64,000 nt of DNA from Schaalia vaccimaxillae DSM 15804 (GTDB taxonomy: Bacteria; Actinomycetota; Actinomycetes; Actinomycetales; Actinomycetaceae): NCBI RefSeq assembly GCF_000420425.1, contig NZ_ATUX01000007.1:248001-312000 (forward strand), given 5' to 3'. The position numbers and the translations under genes are program-made. Below are positions 54,401 to 64,000 of the stretch, one piece after another. Each line of letters starts with the position of its first letter. Positions within the stretch are counted from its first letter, which is position 1. The notes under the pieces were generated by a model. It saw nothing but the letters and a program-made list of their open reading frames with translations, was not told the DNA's origin and did not search any database.

Positions 54401-55057
54401 ATGATGAGCGACATGACAGTGACTCTACGGGGCCGCATTGGTACCGATCTACGAACCTACAAGACTTCCACCGGACGTTTGATCGTACGTTTCCGTTTGG
54501 CGGTGCCAGTTTGGAGAGTCAATGACGCGGGTGAGTTAATCGAAGACAGAACCAATTGGTATACCGTGCGAGCGTGGGATCGTCTTGCCCACAACATTTT
54601 GCGATCCGTGCATAAAGGTCAGCCCGTCATTGTTGTGGGACGGCCGACCGCGAGTGGGTGGATGGACGATAAAAAAGAAATACGTTCCCAGGTCATCATT
54701 AGTGCCCAATCTATTGGCCACGACCTGTCCAAAGGAATCGCTGGCTTTGAAAAGCCCGTACAACCAGGCCAATATGCATCCGAAGATCATGAAGATCGAA
54801 GCCAGGAAATGGCTCCTGAGGATTCTTCGCACGACGCGCTAGATACGCCAGAGGTGGCTCAGGAACCAGATGCAACTCAGGGGCAATCGTGCCCACCCGA
54901 TGCTCACGGCCTAACCGACATCGCCCCTGATGAGAACCTCGACGTAGATGAAGATAATGACGACATCGAAGCAGAACACACCACATCGAGTTCTCAAAAG
55001 TCTCAAATTTCAGGCCAAGGTTTTGCGTCAAGTCCGCAGCCTGCTTTCACCTACTGA
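54401..55057 (+). CDS. Single-stranded DNA-binding protein paralog
   Basis: 218 residues. An OB-fold SSB domain covers about 5-110 ('VTLRGRIGTDLRTYKTSTGRLIVRFRLA', 'NWYTVRAWDRLAHNI', 'VGRPTASGWMD'), followed by an acidic, disordered tail of about 100 residues. The usual conserved tip (DDDIPF) that recruits repair and replication proteins is absent; the chain ends 'SSPQPAFTY'. It is therefore an SSB paralog rather than the main SSB (usually between rpsF and rpsR). AGGAGGAC precedes the ATG at 54401; a small inverted repeat CCGGTA-CA-TACCGG (54370-54383) lies upstream. Confidence 0.85.
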   Translation: MMSDMTVTLRGRIGTDLRTYKTSTGRLIVRFRLAVPVWRVNDAGELIEDRTNWYTVRAWDRLAHNILRSVHKGQPVIVVGRPTASGWMDDKKEIRSQVIISAQSIGHDLSKGIAGFEKPVQPGQYASEDHEDRSQEMAPEDSSHDALDTPEVAQEPDATQGQSCPPDAHGLTDIAPDENLDVDEDNDDIEAEHTTSSSQKSQISGQGFASSPQPAFTY

Positions 55058-55520
55058 TGCCGCCTGCCTCAATGAGGACTTGAGCAATAGCGTAGGAGCC
55101 GTCGTGGCTTATAGAAAGGTGCAGGTGTAGCTTGTCATTCAAGGGGCCCCAGATTTCGTCCATGGAGGAGTAGAAGGATTGGGCTAAGTGGGAGTGAAGC
55201 TGTAAAGCTGGACGGCCCCAACGGTCGTCAACCACTTCCGCCATCTTCCAATTCACTTCATCACGCTCAATCACCGGCGCAACGCCATATAACGCCTCTG
55301 ACCATGCCTTGATGAAGGCTTCTTTGGCGGCCCAGCGTCCGCCCGCATGACGAGCGACAAAAGCTGGATCATCTGATCCGCCGACCGCGGTTGCGCGGGC
55401 GTGAACCCTGCGCAACTCCCTCGCAGTCAAAATGCTCTCGAGGAAATGCGACCCAGGTGTCTCTACCTGAGTTTGGAACTCAGGTAGAGACACCAGATCA
55501 ATTCCGATTCCAAGAATCAC
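55047..55520 (-). CDS. acpS: Holo-[acyl-carrier-protein] synthase
   Basis: 157 residues. Transfers phosphopantetheine from CoA to the Ser of the carrier domain, here presumably of the adjacent type I FAS. 'GIGIDLVSLPEF' has the Mg-binding Asp, 'RWAAKEAFIKAW' the conserved Glu and Lys, and 'LHLSISHDGSYAIA' the last motif. The GTG start overlaps the fas stop (GTGA), so the genes are translationally coupled. Bases 27-65 of the gene form an 18-bp perfect hairpin (separate entry). Converges with the ssb paralog, overlapping it by 11 bases. Confidence 0.94.
   Translation of the reverse strand: MILGIGIDLVSLPEFQTQVETPGSHFLESILTARELRRVHARATAVGGSDDPAFVARHAGGRWAAKEAFIKAWSEALYGVAPVIERDEVNWKMAEVVDDRWGRPALQLHSHLAQSFYSSMDEIWGPLNDKLHLHLSISHDGSYAIAQVLIEAGGISR
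55456..55494 (-). repeat. 18-bp perfect hairpin inside the start of acpS
   Basis: GGTGTCTCTACCTGAGTT (55456-55473) and AACTCAGGTAGAGACACC (55477-55494) pair perfectly around a 3-base loop. On the minus strand it begins 23 bases after the fas stop and lies 26 bases into acpS, encoding residues about 10-22 (between 'GIDLV' and 'GSHFL'). Such long, perfect pairing is unusual in coding sequence. It may act as an attenuator between fas and acpS or limit acpS translation. Confidence 0.85.
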
Positions 55521-58500
55521 TTGTTGGAATCCTCGGGCAGGTGATAGATGCCGTCCTCACCAAGCCTTGCTCGCGGGTCTAGCAGCAATGCTGCTTCGAC
55601 CTCGTGCGGATCACCCGCGGCTCCCTGAGTAACGTCGGTGGCCGGTAGGCGACGTCCCTCGACAGGCTCGAAGAGCGGAGCGTGGCCAAGCATGCCGGCT
55701 TCAACTGTTCGAGTACCGGCCCGCAGACGCGAATCCGACGCCACTCGCCACTGTTTGAGCCGATCCTCACCAAGCTCCCGCTGAACGATTGCCTCGAAAG
55801 CTCCGGGGTTGACTAGCGCCAGGATTCCGGAAACATGCCCGAAGCCTAGCGAGGTTGCAAAGGCCGCACGAATTGGCCCAAGTGCCGACGTATCCAACGG
55901 TGAACGCAGCCACACGAGGTGAGGGTACTGTGCCATCTTGTCGTCGACGCAATCCAGAGCCGCATTCGCGGGGATTATTCCCGTGCGGAACACATCGATG
56001 ATGCCACCGACCTGGAAGACACAAGCGCCGCCTTTAGCGTGGCCAGTCAGAGTCTTCTGAGAGATCACCATGAGCGGATTGCCCTCTGATCTGCCTAGAG
56101 CACGCCCGATACGAGTATGCAGGTCGGACTCGTTTGGGTCGTTCGCATTGGTAGACGTATCGTGCTTAGAGACCACGGCAACATCGTCAATCGTCACACC
56201 CAAGGCAGCCAAGTTACGAGCAAGCGCAGACTTCTGACCCGCACGAGCCACACCCAACGCGCCAATGCCGGGAGCCGGAATCGAAGTGTGGGCGCCGTCG
56301 GCGAAAGTCTGAGCATGCGCAACAACCGCGAGCACAGGCAGACCCATTTCGACGGCGATGGATGCGCGCGTCAACAGCACAGTGCCACCACCTTGGGCCT
56401 CCACGAAGCCAGCGCGACGTCGATCGTTTGCCCGGGACACGAAACGATGAGAAATACCTTGGGCGAGCATATCGTTCGAATTCGCCGTCGCATTCATTGA
56501 ACCGAAGCCAACGATGGATTCGACCTGGATGTCGTCAATAGCTCCAGCGACAACGAAGTCCGCTTTACCGCAGAAAAGCTTATCGACACCCTCCTCAATA
56601 GACACCGCTGCCGTCGCACATGCGCCAACCGGGTTAATCATTGAGCCGTAGCCACCGACGTAGGACTGCATTGTGTGGGCTGCAACCACGTTCGGCAGAG
56701 TTTCCTGCAGGATATCTTGCGGATAATCCTCACCCAAGAACCTGTCAACGAAGAGCTTGTGCATAGAACGCATGCCGCCAAAGCCCGTACCCTGCGTGGA
56801 AGCCACCGTTGACGGATGGACGATTTGCAAGAGCTCGGTCGGGCTGAAACCAGCGGATACGAAAGCGTCTACCGCTGAGACAAGGTTCCATACCGCAATG
56901 GGATCAATGGAATCGATGAGGGATGTGGGAATCCCCCAACGCGCGGGATCGAAACCAGTGGGGAACAAACCACCGATTCGACGATCCAGAGTCGCCCTCT
57001 TAGGTACACGCACCTGGGCCCCAGCCTTGCGGGTCACTTGCCATTCACCGAATGGTGTGCGAGCAATCTGAGTGAACTGAGGATCCGCATCCAGGTAGGA
57101 ACGAGCCTCATCCTCGTCATCGACGGTAAAGGTGATGTCCTGATCTAGGAATACCATCGCCGATTCGGGAGTCCAGCCGTTGTGCAGCGGACCGTCGTCC
57201 TCGAAGAATCGGATACCGCAACGGGCCACGACCTCGTCCCGATACCGTTCGAAGATATCGGACTCATCAACCAGTTGATCCTCAGCGTCGTACCAGCCGC
57301 CTACCGGCGTATCAGACCACGTCAACAATCCCGTCATCCATGCCAGTTCCAGGACACCAGCGGGAGTCAGATCGACGGTCCCATCCGAATGAATACCCAG
57401 TTCGGCTTGAGCCCTGGTGCGTGCCGAACCCCATGGCCCGACCTCGCCGTGACCAACGATGACGACGGTGTCTTCCAGAGACGCTGTCGTCTGCCCCCAA
57501 TCAGCAGGATCCAGGTGGGGGACAGCGGTCACAGTGGGTGAGGGCAGCGCAGAAACAGTGACTGACTCGACCGGCTCTTCATGGGCAACTGGGGTCGCTA
57601 TTGCCTGATCACGCAGAGCACGCAAATCGATCGACTCGTCCAAGCCTCCCGTCAGATCGGCGTGGATTGGGCCGCGAGCAGCCTCCGAGCGGTTTTCCTC
57701 AGATGCCAATTCGAGGAGGGCATCAGCCATTTCCTGGGTTGACCAGGTGCGTACACCAGCCTTTTCGACAGCATCGACGAGCGGATCATTACCACCCATG
57801 AGGCCCGTGCCTCGTACCCAACCGATGAGCGGGTGCGCAATCGAAATGCGAGATGACCAAATTGGCTCAGCAGACCAGCGGGTCGTGATGGCGTCGAAGG
57901 ACGCCTTCGCCTCACCGTAGGCTCCGTCACCACCGAACATGCCGCGGTTGGGCGAGCCAGGCAAAACAACGTGCACTCTGTGGTCAGCGTGAGTATCAGC
58001 TCCGATACGCGACAGGTTCGCGATCGTACGTTCAACCGACCACACCAGCAGGCGGTACTGATTCTCTGAGGCAGGCCCCGCTTCAGCCATCGTGCCTGAA
58101 ACCCTGGGTGCTGCGAAGGGGAAGAACAAGGTTGGAACCATTGCTTCCTTCGTGACCTGCACATCTGCACCCACGGTCTTTGTTTGCTCGCTACCAATCC
58201 AGTCGGTGACAGCATCGATATCACGGTAACTTGCCAAGTTTGCCGGCAGTAACCAGAGTTTTGCCCCAGGAGCAGCGTTCTGACGATAGAGGCGCTTGGC
58301 AAAGGCCAGTCGTGATGCCGAAATATTCGACGAGGTCGCGATAACGGTTGCGCCACCGCGCAGCAGACGAGCGACCACACCACCAGCAATCGACGAGGGC
58401 GTCATGCCTGTCACAAGAGCAACGTCCTTGCGGTAGGGCAGGCGATCAGTCAGCGACTGCCCCGACACGCGTGCTTCTTGAGCGATGGCACGCAGAGCCA

Positions 58501-61500
58501 TCGAAAGATCTGACTTGCCTACCGCCTCAGTCCGATCCGCCCACCAATCAGCATGGTCACCAACAGTGTCGCCAGCTCCAAGGAACACCGGGGAACCATC
58601 AAGCTCGCCCTGTGTGGCCAAACGTGCCACGTCCTCGCGGGCCGACGCCCACCGATCGTCGAGAAGGACCGCGCGACGAGCATCGAAACGAGGCTCAACA
58701 AGATCAACCCATCCGGAACCTAACTCGGCCGAGATAGCTTCAATTGCGGCTGCGCCGTCCTCGTCCTCGTCATCGGTTGGAACTGGAGTATCCAGGCCCA
58801 ACTGGTTGAGTACCTGGCGGGCGGTGTTAGCCAAAATGCCGTCGGGTCCGGTCACTTGAGCAGCGAAGGCGTCCAGAGCAGCCGAGTCGACGACTCCCGC
58901 GCCTGCAGAACCGCCAGCGCTTGGCAGAGCCACTGAAATGCCGTGGCGTGCGGCTACCGACTGGACTGCCTGGTCGATGAGAGCATCCACGCCGGCAGCG
59001 TTTGATGGTGCTTCAGAATTCAGAACCGCTAATTCGCCTTCGCGAGTCGACGCGCCTTCGCGCGTTCCCAAGAGGATCTCAGCAGTAACGTGGTTGGCCC
59101 AGCCGTCTGTTAGCTGCCAAGTTCCCGTGACACGATCAGCCACCCTTGAAGCTTTAACTCCAGCAGCGCCGAAGAGTTTACGGGTGCGATCCTTAATGGC
59201 TTCGCCAAGGACGGGCCCGAAAGCCTTGTACCCTCGAGCCGCCTTGTCGACTGTCACGGACAAGGTCTTAATGTCAGCTTCACCGGCCCCGTCAATGGAA
59301 GACAAGCCCAACTCTGCTGACAGGTCCATGAGGAGTTGGTTGCGTCGCGACGAGACACCATTGGTCAGCGACTCTGTCGTGTCAGAATCGCCCACTTCAT
59401 CGAGGCGGATTTTCGCCGACAGGGCCAACAGCACACGAATGGCACTGGAGGCCGTGAAAGGTAGGTCCGCAACGTCGGCGCCCGAAGGGCCAGCCGTTGA
59501 GGTCGCTGCAACCGATGTAGAAACGGGAGTCTGTGCAACGGGGGCAGCGGAAGCAAGAGGAGCTGTCTGAGCTTCAACGGGACTGTCGGCAGGAGCCTCG
59601 TCCTCATCATCTTGCGTCACGATATTGACATCGGTGCGCATGACGCGAGCCGCATCCCTCTGAACATTGAATACATCCACATTGCGACCCGCGAACGCAG
59701 GCTGAGCCAAAGTGCGAGAAGCAAGATTGGCCAAAGTGGGCGCAGCGCCAAGACCAACCTCAACAACCTCGTCCACTGCCAGAGCGCCTGGCTCGTCTGA
59801 GAAGAGAACACGCTGAGTTTCGATCCAACGCACCGGCGAGGCAAATTGCCAGCACAGCAGCTCAATGAGCAACGTTCGGGCCAACTGCTCAGGGTCAGCC
59901 GCAGCGCTATCCCACGCCTCATCGCAAGCAACCAGAGCTTCAATTGCCTGCGACGGCACCACATCGAGGATTGCTTGGGCGAAATCGCGGGTCAGTTCGA
60001 AGGGGCGAGCCACCAAGTTGGGGATGTAGTTGCCAACGAGGGCGGACGGATCGACACCGTCGGTAATCCGGTCTTGCAACTTCTTGCGGAACTCGTCGAC
60101 ACCGCCGCGCAATACCGTCGAGTGGAAGGGCACATCAATGCCAGGAACATACATGAACGGACGCTTACCGCCGTAGTTCGCTGCACGCTCTTGGGCATCA
60201 GCTGCCAAAGCCTCCAGGCCCGCAACCGTGCCGGCAATCGAATACTGGCTACCAGCAAGATTGAAGTTGACAATCTGGAGGAATTCACCAGTCTGCTGTG
60301 CGATCGAATCTACATATTCAACGACGTGCTCATCGTCGACACCGAATTGGTTGGGACGCAGAGCCCCCATTCGGTAGTTAGAACGGCCGTGCTCATCGCG
60401 TGCGACCAGGGAATGCATGGTGGAACCGCGTTGGAAAACGAGGTCGAGCACAGTCTCAAGCGGGAAGACGCGGCCATAGGCGGCCAGGGCCGTGTATTCA
60501 CCCAAAGAATGGCCAGCAAACGCGGACCCCTCAACGAGGGCACCTTCTTCGCGCAACCTTTCGGTCTGTCCAATGGCCAAGGTCGCGAGCGCAACCTGGG
60601 TGAACTGGGTGAGATTCAAGACGCCGTCGGGATGGCGATAAGTCACACCCTTGGCGCGGATTGATGTCGGATTATCCCTGACGATTGCGAGGATGGAGAA
60701 GCCCATGGCTTCGCGCGTGTGAGCATCAGCTCGCCTCCATACGGCATCGACTGCCGGCGACTGAGCACGTTCGTCCAATCCCATACCCGCCGACTGGATG
60801 CCCTGACCGGGGTAAACGTAGGCGGTACGCCCAGCCGTGGTGGTGGCAGCGGCGCGAGACACCACTTGCTTGTTGATACGGCAGGTGACTTCCAAAGCCA
60901 ACCCGCCCCCAGCGAGGCGACCGGTGCGTTCGACCGTAATCTCAACCTGGTCATTTAAGTCGACGGTGCCGTACATGTAATACGTCCAGGACCGCAGGTG
61001 CAGACCAGGGTGACCGTCCAGAGCAGCCGAAACAGCGTGCTGAGCCGTAGCTGACAGCCACATGCCGTGCACAAGAGGCGCTTCCATTCCAGCAACCTTG
61101 GCTGCCGTCCACGAGGTGTGAATCGGGTTGTAATCGCCCGAGACAATGGCAAATGGCGTCATATCGTCGGGTGCCTGGACCGTGACCTGGCGCAGTACAG
61201 AGCGGGGAGTTTCACGGACCTCTACATCGATGCCCGCATAGGGAGCAGCGGGGGCCGGTGGGCGATTTCCTGTGGCGCGGCCTCGGATCGCAAAACGTTC
61301 CTGGGTCGATCCGATGGGGTGTCCATTGGCGCTCATCTGCAAAACCACGGTGACGATGCGCCCGGATGAAGATTCTTCAATCGACGCAGCGTGAGAGCGC
61401 ACGTCAATGGTGGTCACGCCCTCGCTCAGTAGTTCTTCCGGGCTGCGGTTAAACTCGATGGAATGATCCAGATGGACAGCGTTGAGTAGTCCCTCAATGA

Positions 61501-64000
61501 CTGGATAGTCGTTGTGAATCGCCGAACCCAAGGCCGCGTAAATCGCGGGCCACGCAACACCCAGTAGAGCATCGGGTACCCAGGCAGCCAGATCGTAAGA
61601 AGCGGGAAGAGCCCCTCCAGTAGCTTCGGCGTGGTCGTGTCCCAGCGTCTGCGCCAAGGTGAAGGAGTAGTGGGCTTCACCGAATTCACTGAGCTGCGAA
61701 TCCACCATCTGCGGCATAGCGCTCACGGCATCTCCGGCAACCGAGGTTGAACCCACACCTGCTGTAGCCGCGAGCATCGCGTACATCTGCTCGGGTAGGC
61801 GCTCTTCGTCAATAACGGGGACACCCCCATCGTGGGTTGGCAGAGTCAACGGGAAGACAAGTTTGCGTACGGCGTGCTTGTCTTCGCCGTGGGGGTCTTG
61901 ATCCCACGCAGTATCTAGGAGGATGACCAACGAAAGACCGGCCTCGTCCACGTCGATGACGACACGTTCTGAGGGCAGGACTGCCGCCGGATTTGTCATG
62001 AGGTGGCCAGTCCACGAAATGAAGGGCACAGTGCGCAGCCACTCTTCGAGACTGGAAGCGGGCTTGCCATTACCCAACCTGGTTAAAACAGCGGATGCTT
62101 CGACTCCCGCTTGGGTGAGCCTTTCGACAGCAGCGTTCTCGAAGCGTCCCAGCAGCTCAGCGACAGGTTCATCGACACGATCAATACCACCGACTGACAC
62201 GGGGCCGGGAATAATACGCACGGAATCAGCGCTGTAGCGTTCATCCTGGGCCTGCCACAAACCATCCTGACCCCACCAGCGGATCAAATCGTCATCCAAG
62301 ACCGGCACGAAGGGCATGGGCTTGGGATACTCGCGGCACAAAGTTGGGAACCACGCGGCATCGATGGGCGTGACATACGTCGAGGCGGCGTTCGGGTAAG
62401 CCTCAAGGATCCGCTTGACCGCTGCGGGCCCGTCTTGGCAATCCTGGGCAGTGGGGAAGAGAGTCTCAACTTCACCATGATCAACGGCAGAAAGACGGGC
62501 TTCGATTCGTTGGAGCAGGTGATGGAAACGCAGCTGCCAGGTCGGATCCACCCACGGGAAAGACAGATCGGCGAAACGGGTCACCCACTGGGCGTAGGTC
62601 ATATCTTCTAAATCGCCAAAGTAAGGCTTTGCGGTGCGGTCCAGGATCTCAATGATCTCGGCTTTGCGTTGACGTACTTGAGCCCCATCTGAACCAATTT
62701 CGGCAATCAAGCGGGCAGCAGCTGCAGCAGCGTTGTCAACCTCGTGCATATCGGCGCGAAGATGCGAGAGGCCGGAAGTCACACCACCCTCGGATTTGCC
62801 TACTCCAACCCAACCCTTCGCAGCCGAGGAAGCTGAGACTCCCGGGGTCTGGACCAGCAGTTCTTTGACAGCCTTCGTGGTGCGCGCCTCTTTGGTTGTC
62901 ATTGCCGCAGTGCCCACCAGAACACCGTCAACGGGCATCGCAGGGCGCCCATGTTCAAGAGACCACTGACCCGTGAGGAAGTCAGCGGCGCGTTCGGGAG
63001 TACCGATTCCACCGCCGACTGTTAGAACAATGTTGTCATGGGTGCGCAGATCGGCGTAGGTGGCCAACAGCAAATCGGAAAGGTCTTCCCAGGAATGGTG
63101 GCCACCGGAGTGCCCATCTTCAACCTGGACAATGATCTTGGTGGGGTGTGCCTCCTGCGCGATCTTGATGACCTGGTGAATCTGGTCGACTGTGCCGGGC
63201 TTGAAAGCAACGTAGGGGAACCCGTCAGCACGTAATTGCTTGATGAGTTCAAGGGCTTCCTCTTTATCGGGGATACCTGCCGAAATGACGACACCGTCAA
63301 TGGGAGCGCCGTTGACTCGAGAACGCGATACAATCCGGGCCTGACCGAATTGCAGGTTCCACAGGTAACGGTCCAAGAACATGGAGTTGAACTGGGCAGC
63401 GTGGCCCGGTTTTAACTGCTCGCGAAGACCGGCGAGGTTTTCGTTATACACCTCCTCGGTGACTTGGCCGCCGCCAGCTAGTTCCGCCCAATAACCCGCG
63501 TTGGCCGCAGCAGCGACAATCTCTGGGTCAACGGTGGTTGGGGTCATACCGGCCAGAAGGACCGGAGAACGACCCGTCAAACGCGAAAAACGTGTGTCAA
63601 CGACGGTACGGCCGTCAGCTAGCGTGATCAAACGAGGAGCCAGGCTGGTCCAATCCGCAACCGGGGCAGGTTCCCATCCAGGTGTAGAGGCTTGGTCGCG
63701 ATCAGCATCCGTTCCCGCAGGCACTACCCCCACGCCCGTACCCTCCACGAGAGCGCGAGTCATACGGACGGTAGTCTGCCCCGGACCTAGATCTACGATC
63801 CAACGAGCCCCAGCCTGCACAGCTTCACGGACCTGAGCCGGCCAATCCACAGGATCGACCAATACAGCTCTGGCTAGCTGCTCAGCCACATCACTATCGA
63901 GCTCACACTCTTGCGCCCACGCCATCACCTGGTCCACAGCACCTTGAAGGAGGGACGAATGGAAAGGAATATGGACCGGCAGGAATTCTAAGACTGGGCT
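55517..64000 (-). CDS. fas: Type I fatty acid synthase, multidomain (5' end outside window)
   Basis: 2,827 codons are visible; the reading frame stays open to the right edge, so the start is missing. Bacterial FAS-I makes long acyl-CoAs in the cytoplasm. Domain order on the minus strand: end of the acetyltransferase ('PVHIPFHSSLLQ', at 63950), FMN enoyl reductase ('VLLAGMTPTTVDPEIV', near 63550), dehydratase hot dog ('VSGDYNPIHTSW', near 61130), malonyl/palmitoyl transferase (catalytic Ser of 'AGHSLGEY', 60506-60508), acyl carrier ('NGVSSRRNQLL', near 59350), ketoreductase ('LVTGMTPSSIAGG', near 58400), ketosynthase (Cys of 'VGACATA', 56618-56620; His in 'VSKHDTSTNAND' and 'TGHAKGGA'). No phosphopantetheinyl transferase domain; acpS supplies it. 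Confidence 0.97.
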   Translation of the reverse strand, partial: SPVLEFLPVHIPFHSSLLQGAVDQVMAWAQECELDSDVAEQLARAVLVDPVDWPAQVREAVQAGARWIVDLGPGQTTVRMTRALVEGTGVGVVPAGTDADRDQASTPGWEPAPVADWTSLAPRLITLADGRTVVDTRFSRLTGRSPVLLAGMTPTTVDPEIVAAAANAGYWAELAGGGQVTEEVYNENLAGLREQLKPGHAAQFNSMFLDRYLWNLQFGQARIVSRSRVNGAPIDGVVISAGIPDKEEALELIKQLRADGFPYVAFKPGTVDQIHQVIKIAQEAHPTKIIVQVEDGHSGGHHSWEDLSDLLLATYADLRTHDNIVLTVGGGIGTPERAADFLTGQWSLEHGRPAMPVDGVLVGTAAMTTKEARTTKAVKELLVQTPGVSASSAAKGWVGVGKSEGGVTSGLSHLRADMHEVDNAAAAAARLIAEIGSDGAQVRQRKAEIIEILDRTAKPYFGDLEDMTYAQWVTRFADLSFPWVDPTWQLRFHHLLQRIEARLSAVDHGEVETLFPTAQDCQDGPAAVKRILEAYPNAASTYVTPIDAAWFPTLCREYPKPMPFVPVLDDDLIRWWGQDGLWQAQDERYSADSVRIIPGPVSVGGIDRVDEPVAELLGRFENAAVERLTQAGVEASAVLTRLGNGKPASSLEEWLRTVPFISWTGHLMTNPAAVLPSERVVIDVDEAGLSLVILLDTAWDQDPHGEDKHAVRKLVFPLTLPTHDGGVPVIDEERLPEQMYAMLAATAGVGSTSVAGDAVSAMPQMVDSQLSEFGEAHYSFTLAQTLGHDHAEATGGALPASYDLAAWVPDALLGVAWPAIYAALGSAIHNDYPVIEGLLNAVHLDHSIEFNRSPEELLSEGVTTIDVRSHAASIEESSSGRIVTVVLQMSANGHPIGSTQERFAIRGRATGNRPPAPAAPYAGIDVEVRETPRSVLRQVTVQAPDDMTPFAIVSGDYNPIHTSWTAAKVAGMEAPLVHGMWLSATAQHAVSAALDGHPGLHLRSWTYYMYGTVDLNDQVEITVERTGRLAGGGLALEVTCRINKQVVSRAAATTTAGRTAYVYPGQGIQSAGMGLDERAQSPAVDAVWRRADAHTREAMGFSILAIVRDNPTSIRAKGVTYRHPDGVLNLTQFTQVALATLAIGQTERLREEGALVEGSAFAGHSLGEYTALAAYGRVFPLETVLDLVFQRGSTMHSLVARDEHGRSNYRMGALRPNQFGVDDEHVVEYVDSIAQQTGEFLQIVNFNLAGSQYSIAGTVAGLEALAADAQERAANYGGKRPFMYVPGIDVPFHSTVLRGGVDEFRKKLQDRITDGVDPSALVGNYIPNLVARPFELTRDFAQAILDVVPSQAIEALVACDEAWDSAAADPEQLARTLLIELLCWQFASPVRWIETQRVLFSDEPGALAVDEVVEVGLGAAPTLANLASRTLAQPAFAGRNVDVFNVQRDAARVMRTDVNIVTQDDEDEAPADSPVEAQTAPLASAAPVAQTPVSTSVAATSTAGPSGADVADLPFTASSAIRVLLALSAKIRLDEVGDSDTTESLTNGVSSRRNQLLMDLSAELGLSSIDGAGEADIKTLSVTVDKAARGYKAFGPVLGEAIKDRTRKLFGAAGVKASRVADRVTGTWQLTDGWANHVTAEILLGTREGASTREGELAVLNSEAPSNAAGVDALIDQAVQSVAARHGISVALPSAGGSAGAGVVDSAALDAFAAQVTGPDGILANTARQVLNQLGLDTPVPTDDEDEDGAAAIEAISAELGSGWVDLVEPRFDARRAVLLDDRWASAREDVARLATQGELDGSPVFLGAGDTVGDHADWWADRTEAVGKSDLSMALRAIAQEARVSGQSLTDRLPYRKDVALVTGMTPSSIAGGVVARLLRGGATVIATSSNISASRLAFAKRLYRQNAAPGAKLWLLPANLASYRDIDAVTDWIGSEQTKTVGADVQVTKEAMVPTLFFPFAAPRVSGTMAEAGPASENQYRLLVWSVERTIANLSRIGADTHADHRVHVVLPGSPNRGMFGGDGAYGEAKASFDAITTRWSAEPIWSSRISIAHPLIGWVRGTGLMGGNDPLVDAVEKAGVRTWSTQEMADALLELASEENRSEAARGPIHADLTGGLDESIDLRALRDQAIATPVAHEEPVESVTVSALPSPTVTAVPHLDPADWGQTTASLEDTVVIVGHGEVGPWGSARTRAQAELGIHSDGTVDLTPAGVLELAWMTGLLTWSDTPVGGWYDAEDQLVDESDIFERYRDEVVARCGIRFFEDDGPLHNGWTPESAMVFLDQDITFTVDDEDEARSYLDADPQFTQIARTPFGEWQVTRKAGAQVRVPKRATLDRRIGGLFPTGFDPARWGIPTSLIDSIDPIAVWNLVSAVDAFVSAGFSPTELLQIVHPSTVASTQGTGFGGMRSMHKLFVDRFLGEDYPQDILQETLPNVVAAHTMQSYVGGYGSMINPVGACATAAVSIEEGVDKLFCGKADFVVAGAIDDIQVESIVGFGSMNATANSNDMLAQGISHRFVSRANDRRRAGFVEAQGGGTVLLTRASIAVEMGLPVLAVVAHAQTFADGAHTSIPAPGIGALGVARAGQKSALARNLAALGVTIDDVAVVSKHDTSTNANDPNESDLHTRIGRALGRSEGNPLMVISQKTLTGHAKGGACVFQVGGIIDVFRTGIIPANAALDCVDDKMAQYPHLVWLRSPLDTSALGPIRAAFATSLGFGHVSGILALVNPGAFEAIVQRELGEDRLKQWRVASDSRLRAGTRTVEAGMLGHAPLFEPVEGRRLPATDVTQGAAGDPHEVEAALLLDPRARLGEDGIYHLPEDSNK

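Follow-up and report, generated by a model that had tools for sequence, protein, structure and literature searches.

The first codons of acpS in Schaalia vaccimaxillae DSM 15804 contain a long RNA hairpin directly behind the end of fas, the gene of a type I fatty acid synthase. According to our preferred explanation, to which we assign a probability of roughly two in three from the sequence comparisons, this is the 3′-end hairpin of the fas mRNA, a putative partial U-less terminator or exonuclease barrier, which is written into the acpS codons and would keep fas RNA above acpS RNA.

Results

Structure of the fas-acpS junction

The features of the junction (Table 1) are located in a DNA stretch of 64,000 nucleotides, in the following called the window. 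The arms of the perfect hairpin (55456-55473 and 55477-55494, 18 nt each) are 100% complementary, which confirms the two 18-base arms without mismatch and the 3-base loop described in the initial annotation; the paired region reaches beyond them on both sides. Among the perfect inverted repeats listed for the 64-kb window (arms up to 60 nt apart), the next-longest measure 12 nt. Folding of the plus strand between 55420 and 55530 gave a z-score of -5.4 against 200 shuffled sequences, none of which was as good, and the acpS-sense strand folds with -38.1 kcal/mol over 60 nt into 24 bp with one bulged base. The earlier placement of the hairpin just past the fas stop and inside the first codons of acpS is also right, with a stem onset 19-20 nt past the TGA and perfect arms that correspond to codons 9 to 22.

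Table 1 Features at the fas-acpS junction of S. vaccimaxillae DSM 15804 (positions in the window)
Feature	Position	Strand	Method
Perfect hairpin, 18 bp, 3-nt loop, acpS codons 9-22	55456..55494	-	inverted-repeat detection
Full stem in the fas-acpS RNA, about 24 bp and one bulged base, acpS codons 7-24	55449..55500	-	RNA folding
fas, type I fatty acid synthase, 2806 aa, stop codon TGA at 55517-55519	55517..63937	-	
acpS, phosphopantetheinyl transferase, 157 aa, start codon GTG at 55518-55520 overlapping the fas TGA	55047..55520	-	
SSB-domain gene, convergent neighbour, shares 11 nt with the acpS end, outside the hairpin unit	54401..55057	+	

The Pfam ACPS match begins at AcpS residue 4, and the stem therefore lies in genuine acpS coding sequence. 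Directly before the perfect stem stands the Asp of the AcpS GxD motif, which we take to be a metal ligand. The hairpin arms have no second copy in the genome at up to three mismatches, and an origin from a repeat element was rejected on this ground. Rfam gave five matches between 55001 and 56000, all of them under the gathering cut-off, the best being mir-643 with 29.9 of 65 bits.

The hairpin has the stable stem and short loop of a canonical intrinsic terminator, and it lacks the U-tract after the stem, as its 8-nt tail contains 2 T. Neither of the two sites returned by the terminator scan corresponds to it. It does have the sequence features of an I-shaped (U-less) terminator, namely the missing U-tail and a distance of less than 50 nt from the fas stop codon. 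Similarly, it resembles operon-internal protective hairpins: it is stable, lies inside the downstream reading frame without a U-tract, and is kept in relatives with constraint on synonymous sites.

Synonymous recoding and sliding controls

The recoding test covered twenty codons (60 nt) from the GxD anchor, for which 1000 synonymous recodings were generated with local codon usage. It was applied to a sample of 152 acpS loci, which includes the best 80 of 99 confirmed loci. A family search, in which 120 of 200 genomes matched (31 of these in the genus), contributed 38 loci picked by hand outside the genus and two in the genus. Anchoring succeeded for 149 loci, that is, all except L126, L149 and L164, and the removal of 21 duplicates left 128 distinct loci. 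The near clade consists of 16 distinct loci, our own and those 15 relatives with a tight junction whose acpS and fas are closest to ours; its membership was our choice, and the similarly close, spacer-bearing loci L015 and L017 were kept apart. Two sets of records in the collection deserve a remark. The acpS and fas genes of L036 (titled Xylanimonas cellulosilytica) and L038 (titled Sanguibacter keddieii) are of the Schaalia odontolytica type, and these titles may be incorrect. In some assemblies acpS is present twice at a distance of about 6-8 kb (L032 and L033; G009 and G016), which represents either a duplication or an assembly artefact.

In our own locus the native fold (z -5.25) was matched by none of the 1000 recodings. 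The same result (0/1000) was obtained in 13 of the 16 near-clade loci, while three recodings were as stable in each of L011 and L036, and 24 in L002, where our reading of sequence and fold finds a 13-bp perfect stem in a shifted register. With a longer stretch (75 nt, 600 recodings) the values were slightly weaker, at 0/600 in nine loci and 1-15/600 in the other seven. In a sliding control that covered acpS together with about 700 nt of fas, the lowest mean z (-3.89) was that of the hairpin position, against a background of -0.40 (sd 1.13) over 1362 other windows. No rival position was as low in 12 of the 16 loci; equally low ones occurred elsewhere in L002 (seven), L036 (four), L034 (two) and L007 (two). 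Chance and a mere protein by-product are disfavoured by these recoding and sliding controls. The hairpin is more than a by-product of the protein, since none of 1000 recodings was as stable and a strong stem is kept in 15 near relatives, often with other bases. The earlier statement that AcpS code and structure share one stretch is upheld by the Pfam match and by this excess over synonymous recodings.

Base-pair changes and strand preference

A fixed 20-pair helix was scored on a gap-free alignment of the 16 near-clade loci. In this alignment 86.9% of the cells were paired, compared to 36-58% when the helix was slid, and natively 15-20 of the 20 pairs are kept, whereas recodings average 11.5-14. 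The peptide hence contributes to pairing, because this level is already reached when the same peptides are recoded. Cells changed on both sides numbered 16 versus 6.0 in shuffled alignments (0/500 as high), a count inflated by shared ancestry since the near-clade loci are not phylogenetically independent, and the covariation score was 0.210 versus 0.103 (0/500). Counted as pairs, 5 were changed on both sides versus 3.7 in shuffled alignments, which is not significant (70/500). The initial annotation had named unconserved pairing, with synonymous changes breaking the stem, as evidence against its proposal; at the sequence level the opposite was found, and in the acpS alignment that it had suggested, the 15 closest relatives with coupled genes retain the pairing with altered bases, above the level of synonymous recodings.

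The sense RNA folds more strongly than the antisense RNA in all 16 near-clade loci, with 1-8 G-U pairs on the sense and 0-2 on the antisense side. The difference between the strands exceeds its recoding null (at most 30/600) in just seven of the 16 loci, and the antisense strand also beats its recodings in many loci, including our own (0/600). It is probable but not certain that the sense RNA is the acting form, because its fold is always the stronger one, yet the gap stands above the null in less than half of the loci and the antisense strand folds too.

Gene-end hairpins of the genome

Hairpins with a net stem of at least 11 bp were collected from 484 kb of the 2.34-Mb genome with a crude custom gene caller. 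This sample, which comprises 122 tight codirectional gene pairs, yielded 35 hairpins, 31 outside called genes and four inside. Most of those outside genes (26 of 31) are located at most 120 nt past a gene end, mostly at 4-35 nt; when all hairpins are pooled, 29 of 35 lie within this distance. Three of the four in-gene hairpins directly follow the end of another gene, namely the acpS hairpin, C7:93075-93115 and C5:6141-6175. The 8-nt tails contain 0-6 T, and 15 of the 35 have two or fewer, as is the case for the acpS hairpin. In size, tail and position the acpS hairpin thus matches the gene-end hairpins of its genome; its oddity is that the next gene has already begun.

The hairpin C5:6141-6175 (L203), 16 bp and perfect, is located 6 nt past a gene for a sugar-binding-protein-like product and is followed by a permease gene, an arrangement similar to that of malE-malF. 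The permease start may have been called too far upstream, in which case this hairpin would be intergenic.

Dependence on the spacing between fas and acpS

The 128 distinct loci were sorted by their junction, with loci regarded as coupled when the fas stop lies at most 35 nt before the acpS anchor. A z below -2 was found in 31 of the 56 sampled loci with coupled fas (median -2.14), in 4 of the 41 with fas upstream but farther away (median -0.16) and in 1 of the 31 without fas close upstream (median -0.13). The difference between coupled and spaced loci was pronounced (rank test, p 2.7e-6, uncorrected for ancestry). The signal is missing from 25 of the 56 coupled loci, including 7 of 9 in records titled Corynebacterium. 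The class-level set, which consists of the loci returned from 29 of 46 matching genomes with our own left out, had a z below -2 in 3 of 29 loci and no signal in the other 26, and an extension of the hairpin to the whole class hence failed. As these coupled and class-level loci lack the signal, the candidate device is not general to fas-acpS operons; it is a trait of many Actinomycetaceae and a few others. Strong acpS stems of a different geometry (z -3.0 to -4.2) were also observed in L093, titled Trueperella pyogenes, and in L025, L027 and L028.

Where fas and acpS are separated, the hairpin is often found in the spacer. Spacers of at least 60 nt contain a long hairpin in 14 of 30 cases compared to 3 of 600 dinucleotide shuffles, a count that allows G-U pairs, drops L014 and L018 and includes near-identical relatives (L065 and L067 have the same hairpin). 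Ten of the 14 spacer hairpins begin within 35 nt past the fas stop, and one of the 14 loci (L156) also has an acpS z below -2. No long hairpin was detected in the other 16 spacers. A stricter count with G-U pairs barred gave 8 of 32 versus 3 of 640 shuffles, with the coupled loci L014 and L018 wrongly included. In L015 and L017, the fas tails of which are 77% identical to that of our own locus, the spacers contain U-poor hairpins of 16 and 21 bp, 73 and 89 nt past fas, which exceeds the usual spacing, and acpS has no excess hairpin. Blanks from the simple hairpin finder that gave these two distances do not equal absence, because it misses bulged stems. The acpS genes of these two loci are preceded by TAGGTT with an ATG 7 nt on, in our own reading a possible leaderless promoter. 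On balance, the hairpin behaves as part of the fas end.

A similar hairpin at the junction of a ZnuA-type gene and an ABC ATPase gene

The hairpin C7:93075-93115 (13075-13115 in L117; 16-18 bp) begins 20 nt past a ZnuA-family gene, inside the overlapping gene of an ABC ATPase. This junction was compared in 26 loci (L207-L232, our own included; L233-L236 with lower identity were left out), 25 of which could be scored, as one has a stop in the stretch. The recoding test gave a z below -2 in 17 of the 25 loci, or 16 of 24 without our own. Stems of at least 11 bp, the longest mismatch-free one with 19 bp when G-U pairs are allowed, were found in 13 loci, 14-26 nt past the stop of the binding-protein gene and in the variable N-terminus of the ATPase. 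In L213-L216, where the offset is 64 nt, a stable stem begins about 32 nt past the binding-protein stop; its 3′ arm touches the first possible ATPase start codon, and hence most but not all of the stem precedes the gene. These four spacer loci and the hairpin distances in L015 and L017 fit less neatly with the reading as a fas-end hairpin.

Discussion

Proposed role of the hairpin

The hairpin would belong to the genome's class of long, nearly perfect, U-poor gene-end hairpins and would have retained their usual distance, about 20 nt past the fas stop codon. It is encoded in acpS codons because acpS begins inside the fas stop codon, and selection at synonymous sites would maintain it there. 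A fraction of the RNA polymerases may halt or stall at the hairpin; alternatively, it may bar 3′ exonucleases once the transcript has been cut downstream. By either route fas RNA would accumulate above acpS RNA, and as judged from the sequences partial termination and exonuclease blocking have about equal standing. Much synthase and little of the activating enzyme are plausibly needed, which fits an excess of fas RNA. What the sequences show is a conserved structure in excess of protein constraint, the stronger sense fold, the position, and the long hairpins in about half of the separated lineages; 3′-end formation and the dosage effect are what we infer. The initial suggestion that the hairpin stops or slows fas transcripts gains from its position, from the other gene-end hairpins and from the spacer hairpins of relatives, and loses from the 25 of 56 coupled loci without signal. 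A further point against a fas-end hairpin is that ribosomes starting acpS would melt the stem.

Alternative explanations

The main rival is a translational role at the coupled start, which we regard as unlikely. A stem about 20 nt past the overlapping GTG could act as a brake on acpS, as the initial annotation also suggested, or as a barrier keeping the ribosome that terminates on fas in place at the acpS start, and the footprint of an initiating ribosome is expected to end just short of the stem onset. Such a role agrees with a signal found mainly at tight coupling (31/56 versus 5/72 elsewhere) and with the stronger sense fold in 16 of 16 loci. Separated lineages, however, often carry the long hairpin after fas (14/30) and not at the acpS start, and the same class of hairpin follows many other genes, as 26 of the 31 outside genes do. 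The anchoring hence looks upstream, because hairpins trail fas in spacers and trail many other genes as well. A terminator acting in both directions, or on the antisense strand for the convergent SSB-domain gene, is far less probable. Both strands of the palindrome are able to fold, in our own locus the antisense fold exceeds its recodings (0/600), and a convergent SSB-like gene is found downstream in 14 of the 16 near-clade loci; nevertheless, the sense fold is stronger throughout the clade, the distance from the SSB gene end to the hairpin is 396 nt in place of the usual 4-35 nt, and L093, L025, L027 and L028 have a stem without an SSB match in about 1.46 kb downstream.

Slightly less credence still is given to two explanations without a function in RNA. 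The hairpin could be a by-product of the protein code, with the half-palindromic LPEF..QV motif of the clade completed by chance codon choice. Recodings do reach an average of 11.5-14 of 20 paired positions, but no recoding out of 1000 matched the native fold in 13 of the 16 loci, and class-level loci with a similar peptide (VSIPDFAEQVDQPG) have no excess. It could equally be a mutational palindrome, in which template switching perfected a quasi-palindrome free of selection, as the exact 18 bp of our own locus would suggest; in relatives, by contrast, the stem is kept with different bases, with bulges and with G-U pairs favouring the sense RNA, and 29 of the 35 hairpins of this type are found no more than 120 nt past a gene end. 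The least probable proposal is a frameshift stimulator that yields a Fas-AcpS fusion. In fungal synthases the transferase is fused to the synthase, and a stable stem downstream of the fas stop would suit such an event, but among relatives the fas stop occurs in all three frames relative to acpS (offsets -14, -17, -18 and -25) and inspection by eye found no slippery heptamer before the fas stop of our own locus. A programmed frameshift fusion was rejected, as the frame relation between fas and acpS is not conserved.

Relation to known systems

Compared with published systems, a fas-end hairpin written into acpS has its closest precedent in the hairpins at differential decay boundaries of Escherichia coli, which in the accessible portion of PMC5927463 are likewise protective-type hairpins within downstream coding sequence. 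A hairpin in the codons of the downstream gene is thus of a known kind. The E. coli hairpins are located on average 107 nt into the gene, decay was measured for them, and they are attributed to exonuclease resistance and not to termination (same portion of PMC5927463). The acpS hairpin differs from this set: it begins about 20 nt past the upstream stop at a start-stop overlap in an actinobacterium, and it belongs to the class of gene-end hairpins of its genome. The intercistronic malE-malF hairpin, also treated in that portion (PMC5927463), shares the position after the first gene and holds this gene above the later ones, but it is intergenic whereas that of acpS is coding.

Among actinobacteria, the I-shaped (U-less) terminators, as far as the available sections of PMC12288462 and PMC5335608 describe them, share with the acpS hairpin the missing U-tail and the distance of less than 50 nt past the stop codon. 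They are placed downstream of genes and not within the codons of the next one, although one of them, T-tsaD, is located inside an operon (PMC12288462, PMC5335608, in part). U-less termination is disputed for the mycobacterial polymerase (same sections): a U-less hairpin lowered expression in a Mycobacterium smegmatis reporter (PMC5335608), while in work cited there the M. bovis polymerase required at least an imperfect U-tract in vitro. For M. tuberculosis a dearth of strong termination sites was described (PMC10937400, available part). In Streptomyces clavuligerus, the 3′ ends termed HS-U-lack are also highly structured, with fewer than 3 U in the 8 nt past the stem-loop; according to the accessible text of PMC8269248, 342 3′ ends inside open reading frames were excluded from that study, and the acpS hairpin lies within such a frame. 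The same two genes form one operon in mycobacteria, where the regulation described in the available part of PMC7652896 is exerted by FasR at the promoter and differs from a hairpin at the junction. Class-level loci with Mycobacterium-like AcpS peptides had no excess hairpin in the recoding test.

Titles and the beginnings of abstracts contained no description of a hairpin within acpS or at its junction with fas, in a search with most subscription papers outside its scope. As far as our searches reach, new are the occurrence at fas-acpS, the placement at gene-end distance across a start-stop overlap, and a location in spacer or codons that depends on gene spacing.

Possible implications for operon organization in Actinomycetaceae

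In a tentative generalization, which we consider possible with the odds somewhat against it, the hairpin would represent a general operon device of Actinomycetaceae. A gene-end hairpin would be kept about 20 nt past the stop codon by rewriting the first codons of the next gene, would shift between spacer and codons as the gene spacing evolves, and would set unequal dosage in pairs such as fas-acpS and znuA-ATPase; translation of the second gene may melt it and thereby let transcription continue. In both pairs the first product is plausibly required in larger amounts than the second. Such a device predicts a class of coding-sequence hairpins that would differ from ordinary gene-end hairpins solely by their in-gene location and could be found by their position and their excess over synonymous recodings. 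The acpS hairpin would also offer a natural test case for U-less 3′-end hairpins in actinobacteria, the role of which is disputed. If true, the explanation would account for how one operon with overlapping genes and no room for a spacer signal yields a giant enzyme in large amounts and its activator in small amounts.
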